NCBI GenBank assembly: GCA_002104905.1 | Contig: MCFE01000580.1 | Location: forward strand, 1 to 56,296 | DNA length: 56,296 bases | Reading direction: 5' to 3' | Source: Basidiobolus meristosporus CBS 931.73 | Taxonomy: Eukaryota; Basidiobolomycota; Basidiobolomycetes; Basidiobolales; Basidiobolaceae | Part shown: piece after piece, positions 5,713-56,122 of the stretch | Position numbering within the stretch: the stretch's first letter is position 1 | Layout of the letters: each line of letters begins with the position of its first letter | The notes under the pieces: generated by a model | Told to the model about the DNA's origin: nothing | The model's database searches: none | What the model saw: the letters and a program-made list of their open reading frames with translations, nothing else | Made by a program: the position numbers and the translations under genes

Positions 5713-5987
5713 GTTGATACGGACTGCTTCCCATGCCCATTATTTGTAGTTGAAATAAATGGGCAATCTGTGTATGACGAAGCCCAGCAATTCCCATATT
5801 CGTCAACGAAGCAGGATGTCACAAGTGCTAATGCCGAGAAATTGCCCGGTAATCCCGATCAATAGAGCAGCCCCAATCAGATAGTTTACACGTGTTCAAA
5901 GTTCTCAGAGAAATAGGAAAATCTCTGAGGGATTTATTGAGGCAGAGATTATGTGGAAGTTAATGACAGAACAGCTAATGAATAAGA

Positions 5988-6110
5988 TTAATCAACTTCG
6001 GATGGTCTTCTATCACAGCAGCGTTTCTCAACATCTGGAACCGGTACACCTATTACCATGCTAGCCATGACTAAAGCCAAGGACACTGTAGCAAGGAGAC
6101 GGAAATTCAT
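5988..6110 (-). CDS. small secreted CC-peptide 1 (40 aa)
   Basis: This is a single-exon gene for a 40-residue protein that is too short for most gene callers. Residues 1-21 form a clear signal peptide: Asn-Phe-Arg, then a hydrophobic core, ending near Gly21. Residues 22-30 read VPVPDVEKR and end in the dibasic Lys-Arg of a Kex2 site. The predicted mature peptide is CCDRRPSEVD (31-40). A TATA box lies 123-131 bp upstream of the ATG on the same strand. The gene at 46413-46547 encodes a peptide with the same layout and an alignable P-[VI]-x-[DE]-[VI]-E-x-x-C-C-D-[RK] motif, which is the main reason to believe both are real. I know of no named family that matches. Role unknown: a signalling peptide or small effector is possible but unproven. 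Confidence 0.75.
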   Translation of the reverse strand: MNFRLLATVSLALVMASMVIGVPVPDVEKRCCDRRPSEVD

Positions 6111-6232: not shown

Positions 6233-6241
6233 CTTTTTATA
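6233..6241 (-). promoter_or_regulatory. TATA box of CC-peptide 1
   Basis: On the minus strand this reads TATAAAAAG, 123-131 bp upstream of the ATG at 6110. The second CC-peptide gene has a similar box (TATAAAG) at a comparable distance. Confidence 0.55.
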
Positions 6242-7021: not shown

Positions 7022-7831
7022 TCAGGCAGAACTTTTGAAAATTCCCGCAACCCCGTTAGTGGTGAGCTCTGTTTCAGTTGTGTCTTCAACTTTTGCCGAT
7101 GAAGAATAATCCACCACCAATGCGCTGACGTTCAAATCAAAGCAGCAAAGCAGCAGGCATTCCTTATCGAGCAGATCGGGTTTAGCCAGACAGACCACCA
7201 GATTAGTAACAGTGAACAAAAGCGCTACTATTGATGCGAAGAGGACGCGTTTGGCCAAGTTCTTGAACCTCGCCCTATACGGAGACCATTTGGTGGTAAC
7301 GCATATGGGAATGACGAACAACAAGGTGAGGTACAGGTTTAGCGTTGAATCGAAGACCAGCAGTGCAGTGGTAGTAAAGAAACTAAAACGCAGTTGGCAG
7401 CCAGCACTGCTTCGTTGGTGAGTATCATAAACGATGACGGTAACCATCAGGGAGAAGCATAGTAAGATAAGAAATCCATGGAACCAATATAGCTTGAATC
7501 GTAGGCGTGAAGTGTAATTCCCTCTGATGATGTACACTCGCTCCATGAAATACATGTAGGTGATGTTTTTCGTTCCCAGGTAGCATACTGGGCAGATCCA
7601 GGCGAATATCTGACATGACTGGACAACCGTCTGGTTGACGTAGAGCATCGTGACTGCCATGAAATTGAAGATTGCCGTACAGACCAGGATCGCTAGAATG
7701 AGAACATAGATGTATGATAGCATCATCCATTTCCCAAGACGTCGGCCGATATTCACAGACACTACACATAAGCAGACCAAGAAGATGCTCTGACATAAAA
7801 GAAAGTAGCTACTGAAACTGATTTCTGTCAT
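7022..7831 (-). CDS. seven-transmembrane protein, possible receptor
   Basis: This intronless protein has 269 residues. Seven hydrophobic helices are visible, at about residues 5-27, 37-60, 72-95, 113-134, 148-174, 190-212 and 220-240. Loops are short and a roughly 30-residue acidic, Thr-rich tail follows (VEDTTETELTTN). The N-terminus is very short and no signal peptide precedes helix 1, as in many fungal 7TM proteins. I do not recognise a specific GPCR class motif, so 'receptor' is inferred from topology alone. It lies about 0.9 kb from the CC-peptide 1 gene on the same strand and about 0.7 kb from a divergent gene for a secreted precursor. The start is a true ATG directly before helix 1. 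Confidence 0.75.
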   Translation of the reverse strand: MTEISFSSYFLLCQSIFLVCLCVVSVNIGRRLGKWMMLSYIYVLILAILVCTAIFNFMAVTMLYVNQTVVQSCQIFAWICPVCYLGTKNITYMYFMERVYIIRGNYTSRLRFKLYWFHGFLILLCFSLMVTVIVYDTHQRSSAGCQLRFSFFTTTALLVFDSTLNLYLTLLFVIPICVTTKWSPYRARFKNLAKRVLFASIVALLFTVTNLVVCLAKPDLLDKECLLLCCFDLNVSALVVDYSSSAKVEDTTETELTTNGVAGIFKSSA

Positions 7832-7879: not shown

Positions 7880-8380
7880 TTAAATACCTGGGTGCTGACA
7901 CAACCATCTCAACAGTGATTTGGCAAGAGCTCCTTTGTTGTACTTCGATTTACCTGGGAAAGAGCCTCGCACTGATTTACTACGAAACCAAGTGTACATT
8001 GCTACAGTCTGACGGAAATCATTGGTGAAGTCTAGAACTTGTAAAACCTCATTCCATATCCGACCCGACATGATTGCCTGTTTGACTGGCCATTCATGAG
8101 CAGCGGTGGTTTTGGCAACAGAAAAAGTTGATATGAATTGTTGAAAGTCAAGACCAATCCTTGGGAGTTGTGGGGCTGTTTGGTTGATTGGTTTTATTAA
8201 TACTGACTGGCCGAATCCTTTTCTGCCAGTGCTAAGGCCCGTGAGCACATCGATTGTGGACATATCTCCGAATTCGCAACATATGTAAGCCTGCAGATAA
8301 ATTCTTGAATGCTCCAGTAATTTATGCCTTTCAGATATCATATTACCAATTGTAGGTGTTGAGCCTATTGTTCCCCCCAT
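7880..8380 (-). CDS. hypothetical protein, doubtful
   Basis: This 166-codon open frame uses the first ATG. The upstream part of the frame has only a GTG start. There is no signal peptide, membrane helix or domain that I recognise. Composition is unremarkable, with a basic stretch near the C-terminus (KSKYNKGALAKSLLRW). The start lies within about 15 bp of a plus-strand TATA box belonging to the divergent secreted-protein gene, which leaves little room for its own promoter. It could be a real orphan gene, an exon of the neighbouring 7TM gene, or a chance open frame. Confidence 0.25.
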   Translation of the reverse strand: MGGTIGSTPTIGNMISERHKLLEHSRIYLQAYICCEFGDMSTIDVLTGLSTGRKGFGQSVLIKPINQTAPQLPRIGLDFQQFISTFSVAKTTAAHEWPVKQAIMSGRIWNEVLQVLDFTNDFRQTVAMYTWFRSKSVRGSFPGKSKYNKGALAKSLLRWLCQHPGI

Positions 8381-19908: not shown

Positions 19909-20550
19909 TGATGATGCATTTTAACGTTTATCGGCAGTTACTATCATTAGTTCTTTGCACAGCGTAACGTACAGGCTGGGATCTTTTCATTTTGTCACAT
20001 TTTTTGAACACCAACACAGAGGCTGCTTGAATAAATGTTGGTTTTGTTGTATTATAATTATTCGATCTATCGGGCTAGCATGAGAAACATTCATCCAGAG
20101 CGGGCTGTGTTTCAAACTCTGTTATCCTGGTTTAAGACTCAAACTTGTATGAAGTTAGCGCTCCAATCACCACCCTGAGTTCGAGATGATCTTGGGGAGT
20201 GTGATCGTCGTCAACGCCCTACACGGGCAATGGACAGCTCAAGACCTCTCAGAGTAACACGCGTGGAGGATTTGAGATTCACCTTAATATCAGGAATCAT
20301 GGCTTGCGATGCTTGCTTACTCTATTTCCTCACCATTGTACCAGCCTATGGATGATGATTGATTGTCCTTGCTTGAAACGGTTTCTGGTATCACCTAGCC
20401 TCCAGCTTATAAAATCATCATGCCAAACGAATTATCCTGTTTGAGTGCTGACTTCTTTCCACCTTTGCATTCGGCATCCGCTCTACATTGGCTCACTTGT
20501 TTCCCGACCCTGTAGAAAACCTTTTCTGACGAAACCGCTCCATTTTGGAG
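19909..20550. other. intergenic, no gene seen
   Basis: This holds the Sla2 3' flank and the upstream region of the GPCR-like gene. No open frame of note or other structure was found. Confidence 0.5.
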
Positions 20551-21765
20551 ATGCCTATCATATATGATGCCTCAGATAACCAGGTTGAAATTAAGCGTAT
20601 TATTACCTCAATTTTTAGCGCGATATCGCTTCTAGGTGGCCTCTTTGTAGTGCTCACCATAATATATATAAGAGTTTACCGTCCTCTCCTGGCAAACCGA
20701 CTCTCATTAAAGCTAACCTTTTGGATAGCTCTGGCCGACATTGTTTATAGTATATTTGTGCTCATTTTACAACGCAAAATCTCCTCCAACCAACTGTGCG
20801 CGCTTTTCTTATGGGGCTATCTGGAGTTTACACTGTTGCCGGTTTTCCTGACCGCCACCATCGCATTCAATTTGCATGCGATATTCGTCAGCGACATATA
20901 CGATGTCGTGCGCTATCAGAAATTCTATTTTCCTTCTGCTCTGACTCTGGCAACCAGTATTAGTCTGGTACCACTGGCTGCCAATCAGTTCGAGGCCGAC
21001 CCGGTGGTAGGCACTTGCTGGTATAGCTCTACCTACACGAGCCGGACCATGATTTGGGAGATATGCACTCTGTTCGGCTGGGTTTTCATAGTTGTCCTGT
21101 ATTGCATCTTCGCCGTATGTTTCATTGGATACAAGTTACACAAGCACGAGCAAAACTTGAGATCCAACATCTCGGTAGATATGCATTTCGTCAACCGTAA
21201 GATGAACAAGGCGATGCGTCGGATCATTCTTTACCCGGTGGTACTGATTGTTACACAAACCTTCAATTGCCTTTGCGAGTTCTACACGTTCATCCACGGG
21301 GAGCTCCACTTTTCCCTGTATTTACTGTCGGCAGTGCTACCGGCCTGCGCCGGGTTACTCAACGCCATTGTGTTCATCTTTGACCCAGCGGTGCAGGAGC
21401 TTCTCCACAGGAATCGCAGAGGCTCCACCACCCATGGGAGCCCGTCTGAAGATCGTTCATTCTACCTCTCCAAGTCTATGAATGAAATAGGGCAGAAACA
21501 ACCGAAATCCCCTTCGCAGCTACTGAAGCCCATGGAGTTTTCCGCGGACTCTGATATCTTGTTGCGAATCAGCCCTCCATCCCCTATGACTCATAGCTCT
21601 ATCAGCAAACTGAAGCCGAGCTACCAAGTCCAGGAGGTGCCGCCAAACCATCAGGTTACCTTCAACGACAGCACCCTCTCGACAGACTCATCCATGGCCC
21701 CGGGCCCAGAATCACACCCATTGCATTCCCCACCACGAAAGACCAAGCTCATGTCCCTCATCTAA
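20551..21765 (+). CDS. GPCR-like seven-transmembrane receptor
   Basis: This intronless protein has 404 residues from the first true ATG. A two-base-shifted TTG upstream is unlikely to be used. Helices are visible at about residues 13-40, 53-73, 82-108, 121-143, 162-191, 220-243 and 250-275. The third intracellular loop is basic and short (KLHKHEQNLR..NRKMNKAMRR), and helix 7 contains NAIVFIFDPAVQELLHRNRR, which starts an amphipathic helix 8. A 115-residue Ser/Pro-rich cytoplasmic tail follows. The overall pattern resembles the cAMP-receptor-like/GPR1-like group of fungal GPCRs, and a conserved Cys in the second extracellular loop (GTCWYSS) supports this. Ligand unknown. The tail has many Ser/Thr-Pro sites, consistent with regulation by phosphorylation. 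Confidence 0.82.
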   Translation: MPIIYDASDNQVEIKRIITSIFSAISLLGGLFVVLTIIYIRVYRPLLANRLSLKLTFWIALADIVYSIFVLILQRKISSNQLCALFLWGYLEFTLLPVFLTATIAFNLHAIFVSDIYDVVRYQKFYFPSALTLATSISLVPLAANQFEADPVVGTCWYSSTYTSRTMIWEICTLFGWVFIVVLYCIFAVCFIGYKLHKHEQNLRSNISVDMHFVNRKMNKAMRRIILYPVVLIVTQTFNCLCEFYTFIHGELHFSLYLLSAVLPACAGLLNAIVFIFDPAVQELLHRNRRGSTTHGSPSEDRSFYLSKSMNEIGQKQPKSPSQLLKPMEFSADSDILLRISPPSPMTHSSISKLKPSYQVQEVPPNHQVTFNDSTLSTDSSMAPGPESHPLHSPPRKTKLMSLI

Positions 21766-45057: not shown

Positions 45058-46125
45058 ATGGACTACACATACAACACTCAGTTCTACAACTGGATTCACA
45101 ACGAAAACAACGTCGATTATATAGCATACTATATGCGCAAAATCATCGCTGACTATGAGGAGACCAATGTGAAATCTGTATATAGAGCCATCAAATGGCT
45201 AGTGAACGAATGGTCAGTTCAAAGGACTGCCGAGTTATTGGTGAAATTGTTCTATCACTGGGGGATCGACTGTCCAAAGTTCGCCGGCCTTATTGCCCAA
45301 GTGGTGGATGAATGGGACATCAAGCAGACGATAGAGTTGGTGGTTACGCTGGTTATAGGCGAACGGTCAAGTAAGGTTGCTCAATTCATCAAGCAACTCA
45401 CAATCTCGTGGGGTACGCTAGCGACGGTCCAGCTGGTTAAATGCATAGGAATCCGACTTCGATGGAATGAGCGTTACTTCAAGCACTTTCTGTTCCATTT
45501 TGCAAGTATGCATCGTGGGACTACCTCTAATGTAATGCCACCGCCACTCTCTCCATCCGAATATGATCATAGCACACGTATGATTATCAACCATATTCGA
45601 CAGCAATTCCAAGCTCGAAGAATCCTTCTTCAGCAGCAGCGATTTGTCCCGTCGGATGCCGAGATGGTGGATAGCTGTTTCTCCTTGGTGGAGTTTTCCA
45701 CTGCTATCTTTGAAAGGATCCTATCCCACTCGTTGCATACCCTGGAGATGCCACTTTATCGCCCAGAACCAATTTCTGCCGCAAACAGCTATAAGCATAA
45801 AAGCCCCAAGTATCCGTATCCCAGTCACCATTTGGCACGACTACCATTCTATCTTGATCTGGACAGGGGCGAGCAAACTGGGTCTTATACGTCGCCTGAA
45901 CAGTCTGTCCGCTCTTACGGGCAAGCAATGGAGGGTTATCGTGAGTCGGTACAATACGAGGGCCACTCACATTGCTGCCCTACTTATGCAGGAGCCTCAA
46001 CCTCATCAGCCGCCTCATCCCCGTCGTCTTCATTGTTAGAGAAAATCACGCCATCTCATCCGAATAGAACAGAGGCAAGACCGCCGTCCCTGGTCTTCAA
46101 TGAGAACAACGTGAATCCGAATTAA
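45058..46125 (+). CDS. protein with tandem tryptophan helical repeats, function unknown
   Basis: This protein has 355 residues and no intron in the coding region. Residues about 42-145 carry three diverged copies of a 32-34-residue helical unit, each with an E-W or S-W pair followed by a short polar link and an aliphatic helix: LVNEWSVQRTAELLVKLF, VVDEWDIKQTIELVVTLV and LTISWGTLATVQLVKCIG. Trp52, Trp86 and Trp118 mark the register. The N-terminus is Tyr/Asn-rich, and the C-terminal 200 residues are mostly disordered (His, Ser, Pro, Tyr), ending in a Ser/Ala run. No signal peptide or membrane helix. I do not recognise the family; I expect a solenoid-type binding domain. The ATG is in a CCATGG context directly after a splice-like CTCTAG. 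Confidence 0.75.
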   Translation: MDYTYNTQFYNWIHNENNVDYIAYYMRKIIADYEETNVKSVYRAIKWLVNEWSVQRTAELLVKLFYHWGIDCPKFAGLIAQVVDEWDIKQTIELVVTLVIGERSSKVAQFIKQLTISWGTLATVQLVKCIGIRLRWNERYFKHFLFHFASMHRGTTSNVMPPPLSPSEYDHSTRMIINHIRQQFQARRILLQQQRFVPSDAEMVDSCFSLVEFSTAIFERILSHSLHTLEMPLYRPEPISAANSYKHKSPKYPYPSHHLARLPFYLDLDRGEQTGSYTSPEQSVRSYGQAMEGYRESVQYEGHSHCCPTYAGASTSSAASSPSSSLLEKITPSHPNRTEARPPSLVFNENNVNPN

Positions 46126-46412
46126 TCTGTAGTATAGCTATTTTACCACTGTCGATAGTGTCTGACCAGGTCCCCGTTTGTAATAGTAAATTCTACCACT
46201 GGGTTGGGAGATCCGTGGATGTACAATATATTTCAATAGAATCAATAAAATCCATTGCTTCTATTCCTCCAAGTGCTCTGACAGGTGTGAGTAGTCAACC
46301 GTATGGGATAGTGCTCGATTTATTTGGATCTCTAATACTTCACCAAACACAAAAAGTTCAAACTAGCCCTCGAAATGCGGTGCGGGTATCATGTGTGTAG
46401 TGACGATTCCAT

Positions 46413-46547
46413 TCAGCTGAGGGGCTTCCCTTTGTCACAGCACGTGCTCTCTATTTCGCTGATTGGTAAGGAGTATCCTGCCACGCAGTTTGTGAGGGCC
46501 AGGACAGTCAAAATCGCAAGGAAGAGGCGGATGTCCCGAATACTCAT
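46413..46547 (-). CDS. small secreted CC-peptide 2 (44 aa)
   Basis: This is a single-exon gene for a 44-residue protein and the relative of the gene at 5988-6110. Residues 1-24 form a signal peptide (basic start SIRDIR, then LFLAILTVLAL, then CVAG). Residues 25-35 are a short spacer containing PISEIEST, and Cys36-Cys37-Asp38-Lys39 start the C-terminal part, CCDKGKPLS. Aligned without gaps from the proline on, it shares the motif P-[VI]-x-[DE]-[VI]-E-x-x-C-C-D-[RK] with peptide 1. Unlike peptide 1 there is no Lys-Arg before the cysteines (Ser-Thr instead), so Kex2 cutting is not predicted there. A TATA box lies about 100 bp upstream. Function unknown. Confidence 0.75.
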   Translation of the reverse strand: MSIRDIRLFLAILTVLALTNCVAGYSLPISEIESTCCDKGKPLS

Positions 46548-46643: not shown

Positions 46644-46650
46644 TTTATAC
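46644..46650 (-). promoter_or_regulatory. TATA box of CC-peptide 2
   Basis: TATAAAG on the minus strand, 97-103 bp upstream of the ATG at 46547. The spacing is similar to that of CC-peptide 1. Confidence 0.5.
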
Positions 46651-55160: not shown

Positions 55161-56122
55161 ATGCTCGGCCAAACTATGAAATTGTTCCTCGGTGCTTCTC
55201 TTCTCGGCTATGCTGCTGTTGATGCCAAGCTTTACTTCACTAGCCCTGTTGGACAAACTTGGACTGCTGGATCCAAGTACGATATTCAATGGTAAGTATC
55301 TACGATTGATTCCGCCTACATTGCTTCCTAGTGATTAATCATCAACGTAGGATAAACAATTCCGACGCTCCACCCATGCCAAAGACCTTCGACATCATTC
55401 TCTACGATGGCAATGACAAAGACCTAACCAGTGTCGCCACCATTTTTGGTAACGTTGACGCAGCCAAGTTTTCTTACGAGTGGACCATTCCCAGAGATTT
55501 GATAGAGGGAACATATGTCATTGGTGGCTGTTACGGTAATGAATGTGTCTTCACCCATACATTCAAGATCGACAGCACCTACAAGAGTTCCTCGCATGCA
55601 ACAACCGCCAGCGCTACCTCAACTGCTTCTAAATCCGATAGTACCTCCAAGGTGTCCGAATCCTCAGCCACCAAAACCAGCACCTCAGAATCTTCCAGCA
55701 AGACCGAGTCTAAAGATTCGAAGACTGTTTCCCACAGCACTGAGGACAAGTCCTCCAAGTCCGAATCCCACTCTGATAAGGAGTCAAAGACCGATTCTCA
55801 CTCTGATAAGGATTCGAAGACCAAGTCCCATTCTGATAAGGAGGCAAAGACTGATTCTCACTCATCCCATGATGCATCTAAGACCGATTCTCTATCCAAG
55901 ACTGAATCACACTCCGAAGCCACTTCAACCAAGACTGATGACCATTCACAAACCTCGAGCACCACTAGCGTTTCCACATCTACATCCAGCTCTACTGACG
56001 CTTCAACACCTTCCCCCAAGTCTAAATCCGAGGACCACAAGAACGATTCCAGCGCAGCTGCCTTGCCCGTGATCTTTGTGAGCTTCCTTGCCCTCGCCAG
56101 CTCCTTCGTAGCCTTAGCTTAA
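55161..56122 (+). CDS. Kre9/Knh1-type Ser/Thr-rich GPI-anchored wall protein
   Basis: Two exons (55161-55291, 55351-56122) give 300 residues. A signal peptide (from the second Met: KLFLGASLLGYAAVDA) is followed by the Kre9/Knh1 N-terminal domain: LYFTSPVGQTWTAGSKYDIQW, split by the intron just before the last Trp. It continues with DIILYDGN, FSYEWTIPRDLIEG and Y.IGGCYGNECVFTHTFKI. The rest is a Ser/Thr/Lys-rich stalk, likely O-mannosylated, with an internal 30-bp repeat. The C-terminus (SSAAALPVIFVSFLALASSFVALA) is a GPI attachment signal with Ser/Ala as the likely omega region. Probably a wall or plasma membrane surface protein; a role in beta-1,6-glucan is known for Kre9 but not shown for this wider family. 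TATAAA lies about 62 bp upstream of the ATG. Confidence 0.86.
55766..55864 (+). repeat. 30-bp tandem repeat coding SHSDKESKTD, three copies plus a partial
   Basis: Units start at 55766, 55796 and 55826, each encoding S-H-S-D-K-[ED]-[SA]-K-T-[DK]. A partial fourth follows. It lies in the Ser-rich stalk and keeps the frame, so copy number can change without loss of function. Confidence 0.85.

Follow-up and report, generated by a model that had tools for sequence, protein, structure and literature searches.

The two small minus-strand frames described here, named peptide 1 and peptide 2, are probably best explained as a family of two related compact genes that would encode secreted precursors of fewer than 50 residues acting outside the cell. 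They lie in the window, i.e., the whole analysed stretch of 56,296 nucleotides. Apart from its first 3.2 kb or so, the window (3199-56296) is collinear with a second contig from the genome of the gut fungus Basidiobolus meristosporus CBS 931.73 (89.0 Mb, 1,311 contigs), here called C587, which runs in the opposite direction and is 84% identical over the longest block (35 kb) and 69-82% identical in later blocks. C587 carries both peptide frames, with frame and stop intact in each copy, and may be either a homeologue, produced when genomes hybridised or doubled, or a haplotype of very high divergence. B. ranarum has been proposed to be at least diploid, with possible gene or genome duplication (PMC3281927), and genes of Kex2-processed repeat proteins (KEPs) in CBS 931.73 have been reported in 2 or 3 copies (PMC7329392). 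RNA-seq of this strain has been used in a published study (PMC7466969). The collinear C587 copy serves coding tests throughout 3199-56296. The initial annotation had described peptide 2 as a second 44-codon minus-strand gene with a signal peptide some 40 kb from peptide 1, and the translation agrees with this description. A crude rule (hydrophobic start, plausible cleavage site) called a signal peptide in all four frames, i.e., in the window and C587 copies of each gene. The features of the two genes are as follows.

5988..6110, minus strand: peptide 1 gene, 40 codons and stop, 40.3 kb from peptide 2
C587:80253-80375, plus strand: second copy of peptide 1, 80% amino acid identity
6009..6044, minus strand: 12-codon core of peptide 1, PVPDVEKRCCDR; four synonymous changes and no replacement between copies
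6021..6026, minus strand: Lys-Arg codons of peptide 1, putative Kex2-type site; each codon differs synonymously between copies
6236..6241, minus strand: TATAAA of peptide 1, -131 from the ATG; the C587 copy has a TATA-type box at -133/-131
5933..5938, minus strand: AATAAA of peptide 1, 50 bases past the stop; C587 counterpart also at +50
46413..46547, minus strand: peptide 2 gene, 44 codons and stop, translated frame with a hydrophobic start
C587:39331-39465, plus strand: second copy of peptide 2, 72% amino acid identity across residues 1-43
46476..46547, minus strand: codons 1-24 of peptide 2, putative signal peptide; the cleavage site was set by eye after Ala-Gly, and falls after residue 17 under the crude rule
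46431..46466, minus strand: 12-codon core of peptide 2, PISEIESTCCDK; four synonymous changes and one Ile/Leu change between copies
46644..46649, minus strand: TATAAA of peptide 2, -102 from the ATG; C587 counterpart at -88
46319..46324, minus strand: AATAAA of peptide 2, 89 bases past the stop; C587 counterpart at +88

The comparison of the copies indicates that both frames look like real coding genes. The 12-codon cores had been chosen from the window copies alone, before the comparison with C587, and this comparison is therefore a fair test. Nine of the 24 core codons differ between the copies, eight synonymously and one by a replacement (Ile to Leu). Neutral simulations, with substitution rates estimated on the flanks (1,339 aligned sites, 78% identical), gave a mean of 10.0 replacements in the cores, and one or none occurred in 5 of 100,000 simulations; when the number of changed codons was matched, none of 6,042 was as low. 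Across the whole frames of the two peptides, 18 synonymous changes stand against 21 replacements, the neutral mean being 33.3 replacements; a count this low arose in 66 of 20,000 simulations, and in 0 of 1,156 when the number of changed codons was matched. The frames outside the core, that is, the signal peptides and C-termini, show 20 replacements against a neutral mean of 23.3 (4,526 of 20,000 as low). As this remainder of both frames is near the neutral expectation, the visible constraint sits in the core. The Nei-Gojobori values are dN 0.106 and dS 0.341 for peptide 1, and dN 0.156 and dS 0.507 for peptide 2, so that the comparison of dN/dS between copies yields about 0.31 for each gene. 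Each of these coding tests rests on one pair of copies per gene. DNA identity between the copies peaks, at 88% and 87%, in the mature part, the 150 bp upstream being 71% and 69% identical.

In favour of frames that are open by chance and have no coding role, the window contains 410 small ATG frames, 25 of them signal-peptide-like, and permutation tests with a fixed number of changes gave no significant result for any frame or mature part taken alone (P 0.09 to 0.22). Nevertheless, the core pattern of eight to one, the deficit of replacements in the whole frames and the preservation of flanking signals make chance frames extremely improbable. A conservation filter that made no use of the CCD motif (Cys-Cys-Asp) found 61 small frames of equal length conserved between the window and C587, six of which are signal-peptide-like; among these six, more than one synonymous change was seen only in the two peptides and in an apparent first exon at 55161-55295 (8, 10 and 6, respectively). 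This last frame is conserved, begins in a signal-peptide-like manner and resembles the opening exon of a gene for a larger secreted protein, and it has two relatives on C587, at 30848 and 29020.

As for the boundaries of the genes, each of the four copies has a TATA box upstream and an AATAAA signal downstream. Among 408 small frames of the window, TATAWA at -150 to -60 precedes 24, and AATAAA within 120 bp downstream follows 23. TATA boxes within 131 bp of the ATG, as claimed by the initial annotation, are present in both window genes, at the positions listed above. Alternatively, each frame might be the first exon of a longer, spliced gene, or peptide 1 might be an upstream frame in the mRNA leader of an M28 peptidase. 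The peptidase gene has the same orientation and begins 275 bp past the stop of peptide 1, and no TATA-type box was seen by eye in the interval. A GT lies within the CCD codons (GTGAYA) in both copies of both genes, and the third conserved frame of the kind, 55161-55295, resembles a first exon. However, no GT kept in both copies of either gene matches GTRNGT, each gene has an AATAAA past its stop in the window and on C587 alike, and frame and stop are preserved in each copy. The distances from the stops to the neighbouring genes are also short, 275 bp for peptide 1 and 287 bp for peptide 2, measured in the latter case to the stop of a convergent gene (45058-46125). An exon or leader origin is therefore regarded as improbable, and the simplest reading is that both peptides are encoded by compact single-exon genes.

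The relation between peptide 1 and peptide 2 is a separate question from the reality of the genes. The match P-[VI]-x-[DE]-[VI]-E-x-x-C-C-D-[RK], on which the initial annotation had based a common family, is present over twelve ungapped positions, and five of these (P, E, C, C, D) are identical between PVPDVEKRCCDR and PISEIESTCCDK. The best ungapped BLOSUM62 score of peptide 1 against peptide 2 is 45. This score was reached in 1 of 20,000 full shuffles of both sequences, in 25 of 20,000 shuffles with CCD held in place, and in 30 of 20,000 when, in addition, the flanking parts were shuffled separately. The predicted mature parts of 73 signal-peptide-like small frames from both contigs were also compared in all 2,628 pairs. 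A score of 45 was attained by 11 pairs, of which three join peptide 1 with peptide 2 and eight appear to join a frame with its second copy, a relative or a repeat. Across the four peptide 1/peptide 2 pairs the scores are 43, 45, 46 and 48, and the best remaining pair scores 32. The significance of the alignment thus persists against both shuffled sequences and other signal-peptide frames.

Two real but unrelated secreted peptide genes, alike by convergence or chance and forming no family, would account for the fact that just five of 12 residues are identical, that overall identity in the four-sequence alignment is 28-31%, and that a query with peptide 1 does not retrieve peptide 2; shuffles with CCD kept also average 27 against the score of 45. 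Such an origin appears unlikely, although it deserves more weight than the other alternatives, as few CCD-keeping shuffles reach 45, apparently unrelated signal-peptide frames score 32 at most, and both compact frames that passed the CCD-blind filter (the first exon at 55161-55295 aside) carry CCD. The peptides look related beyond CCD, and a common origin, resting on about ten residues, is the likelier case. Both genes would then most likely have arisen from one ancestor prior to the doubling of the segment.

The size of the family was assessed in the whole genome. Protein searches up to E 10 with all four copies as queries retrieved only the query itself and its counterpart; since peptide 1 misses peptide 2 in such a search, equally distant members could be missed. 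Three CCD contexts were also covered by pattern searches, in which the uninterrupted frame around each site was inspected by eye. The genome has 17 sites for K[RS]CCD (13 in the reversed control), 12 for CCDKG (control 3) and 5 for CCD[RS][RS]P (control 2). A signal-peptide frame contains two of the sites in each case, and these belong to peptide 1 for the first and third patterns and to peptide 2 for the second. The 15 remaining K[RS]CCD sites include seven (L018, L021, L023, L024, L026, L030 and L032) with the reading [AV]K[RS]CCDPI or SKSCCDPI, which appear to belong to a single repeat family. Among the CCDKG sites other than peptide 2, five of 10 read CCDKGFVRLQLETA. The searches show two predicted genes at four loci, as the segment that carries them is present in two diverged versions. 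The proposal of a multi-copy family across the genome is not supported, because protein searches find each gene exactly twice and the three patterns add none, although distant members with CCD in other contexts may exist. What stands of the undescribed family is a pair of probable paralogues with no convincing database match.

The two-gene family suggests the following route from precursor to product. The signal peptide would be removed in the secretory pathway. In peptide 1, a Kex2-type protease would probably cut after the kept Lys-Arg and release a 10-residue peptide beginning with Cys-Cys-Asp, predicted as CCDRRPSEVD in the window (calculated mass about 1179 Da in the reduced state) and CCDRRPPGLD in the C587 copy. 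The dibasic sites of peptide 1, read by eye, are one KR ahead of the core and the RR inside CCDRR. Ser-Thr replaces Lys-Arg in peptide 2, as had been claimed and as direct reading of the sequence confirms, and KR, KK, RK and RR are all absent by eye from its mature part. Peptide 2 would accordingly be released as a peptide of about 20 residues, YSLPISEIESTCCDKGKPLS, or a part of it. The adjacent cysteines would most likely pair between chains, forming a dimer, or with a partner. The last residues of the mature peptides vary between copies, and the CCD-centred core hardly varies. Outside the cell, the peptides would most likely act as signals; our best guess, made from sequence, is an extracellular signal with intermolecular disulfides.

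A receptor-like gene is found beside peptide 1:

7022..7831, minus strand: 269-aa receptor-like neighbour with seven hydrophobic stretches, labelled a G-protein coupled receptor by one source

A gap of 911 bp separates the end of this frame from the ATG of peptide 1, which lies downstream, and the arrangement on C587 is similar. The frame corresponds to the public B. meristosporus CBS 931.73 protein K493DRAFT_386648 (91% of the frame aligned, at 100% identity), has a relative in B. ranarum that is 62% identical, and differs between the copies with dN 0.050 and dS 0.528. No Pfam match was obtained at E up to 1 and no NCBIfam match, and the comparison with PDB gave no convincing match (best E 0.69). 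The K493DRAFT_386648 model starts with residues from the frame 7880-8380. As the C587 copy and the B. ranarum protein both align from the ATG of the 269-aa frame itself, the annotated start is probably wrong. Because a neighbour with seven hydrophobic stretches adjoins peptide 1 in both the window and C587, a ligand-receptor pair may be suggested, in which peptide 1 would be the ligand of the seven-helix receptor-like protein, linked to it in both genome copies, and peptide 2 a diverged sister ligand. We consider this specific pairing very improbable. Peptide 1 is all the same a concrete candidate ligand next to a receptor-like gene.

The frames scanned around peptide 2 include an EamA-type transporter, the 355-aa protein at 45058-46125 and pieces of an ABC1-type kinase, and no receptor match was seen among them. 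A weak Frizzled-type match lies at 20545-21765, about 25 kb from peptide 2. The 355-aa protein is without a Pfam match and has 11 matches in the genome, namely itself, an 82% identical C587 counterpart and nine at 24-47% identity. Near these older paralogues, no CCD frame was seen within about 2 kb beyond the match for the four highest-scoring of the nine distant matches.

As far as the searches go, the peptides are undescribed. Peptides 1 and 2 have no convincing match in Pfam, NCBIfam or protein databases, and a search of the PDB chain sequences with a limit of E 10 returned nothing. The sole Pfam listing is that of one peptide 1 copy against a membrane-anchor model (E 0.44), which was taken to reflect the hydrophobic start. 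No relative outside the genome was found in a large protein database, among entries that share words with the query and whose length relative to it is between 0.55 and 1.75. Literature searches, judged by title or the start of the abstract, returned no work on these peptides, and no paper was found on a G-protein coupled receptor or pheromone of Basidiobolus. Gene catalogues often omit frames under about 50 codons, and repeat-based screens miss single-core precursors. Two such small genes stand out in one 56-kb window through selection between genome copies. Comparison of copies within a genome is therefore a workable route to a hidden set of secreted peptides in Basidiobolus.

Short secreted peptides with adjacent cysteines are known from other organisms, e.g., conotoxin-like scaffolds, which combine a signal peptide, a short mature part and Cys-Cys. 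Peptides 1 and 2 share these features but have only two cysteines in the mature part and no scaffold. The KEPs, which include the alpha-pheromone of Ascomycota and ustiloxin-type RiPP precursors, are likewise secreted precursors with a short product, and their dibasic site is shared with peptide 1 alone. In a survey of 1,461 strains, B. meristosporus CBS 931.73 had more KEPs than any other, namely 43, where a KEP needed three or more tandem repeats, each of eight residues or longer, between Kex2 sites (PMC7329392); a minimum of three repeats likewise applies in another study (PMC6339444). The N-terminal signal peptide that belongs to the KEP definition is predicted by the crude rule in both genes and both copies, and no repeats are seen by eye in the 40- and 44-residue frames. 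Therefore, peptide 1, with its single KR and no repeats, and peptide 2, with no KR, both fall outside the KEP definition.
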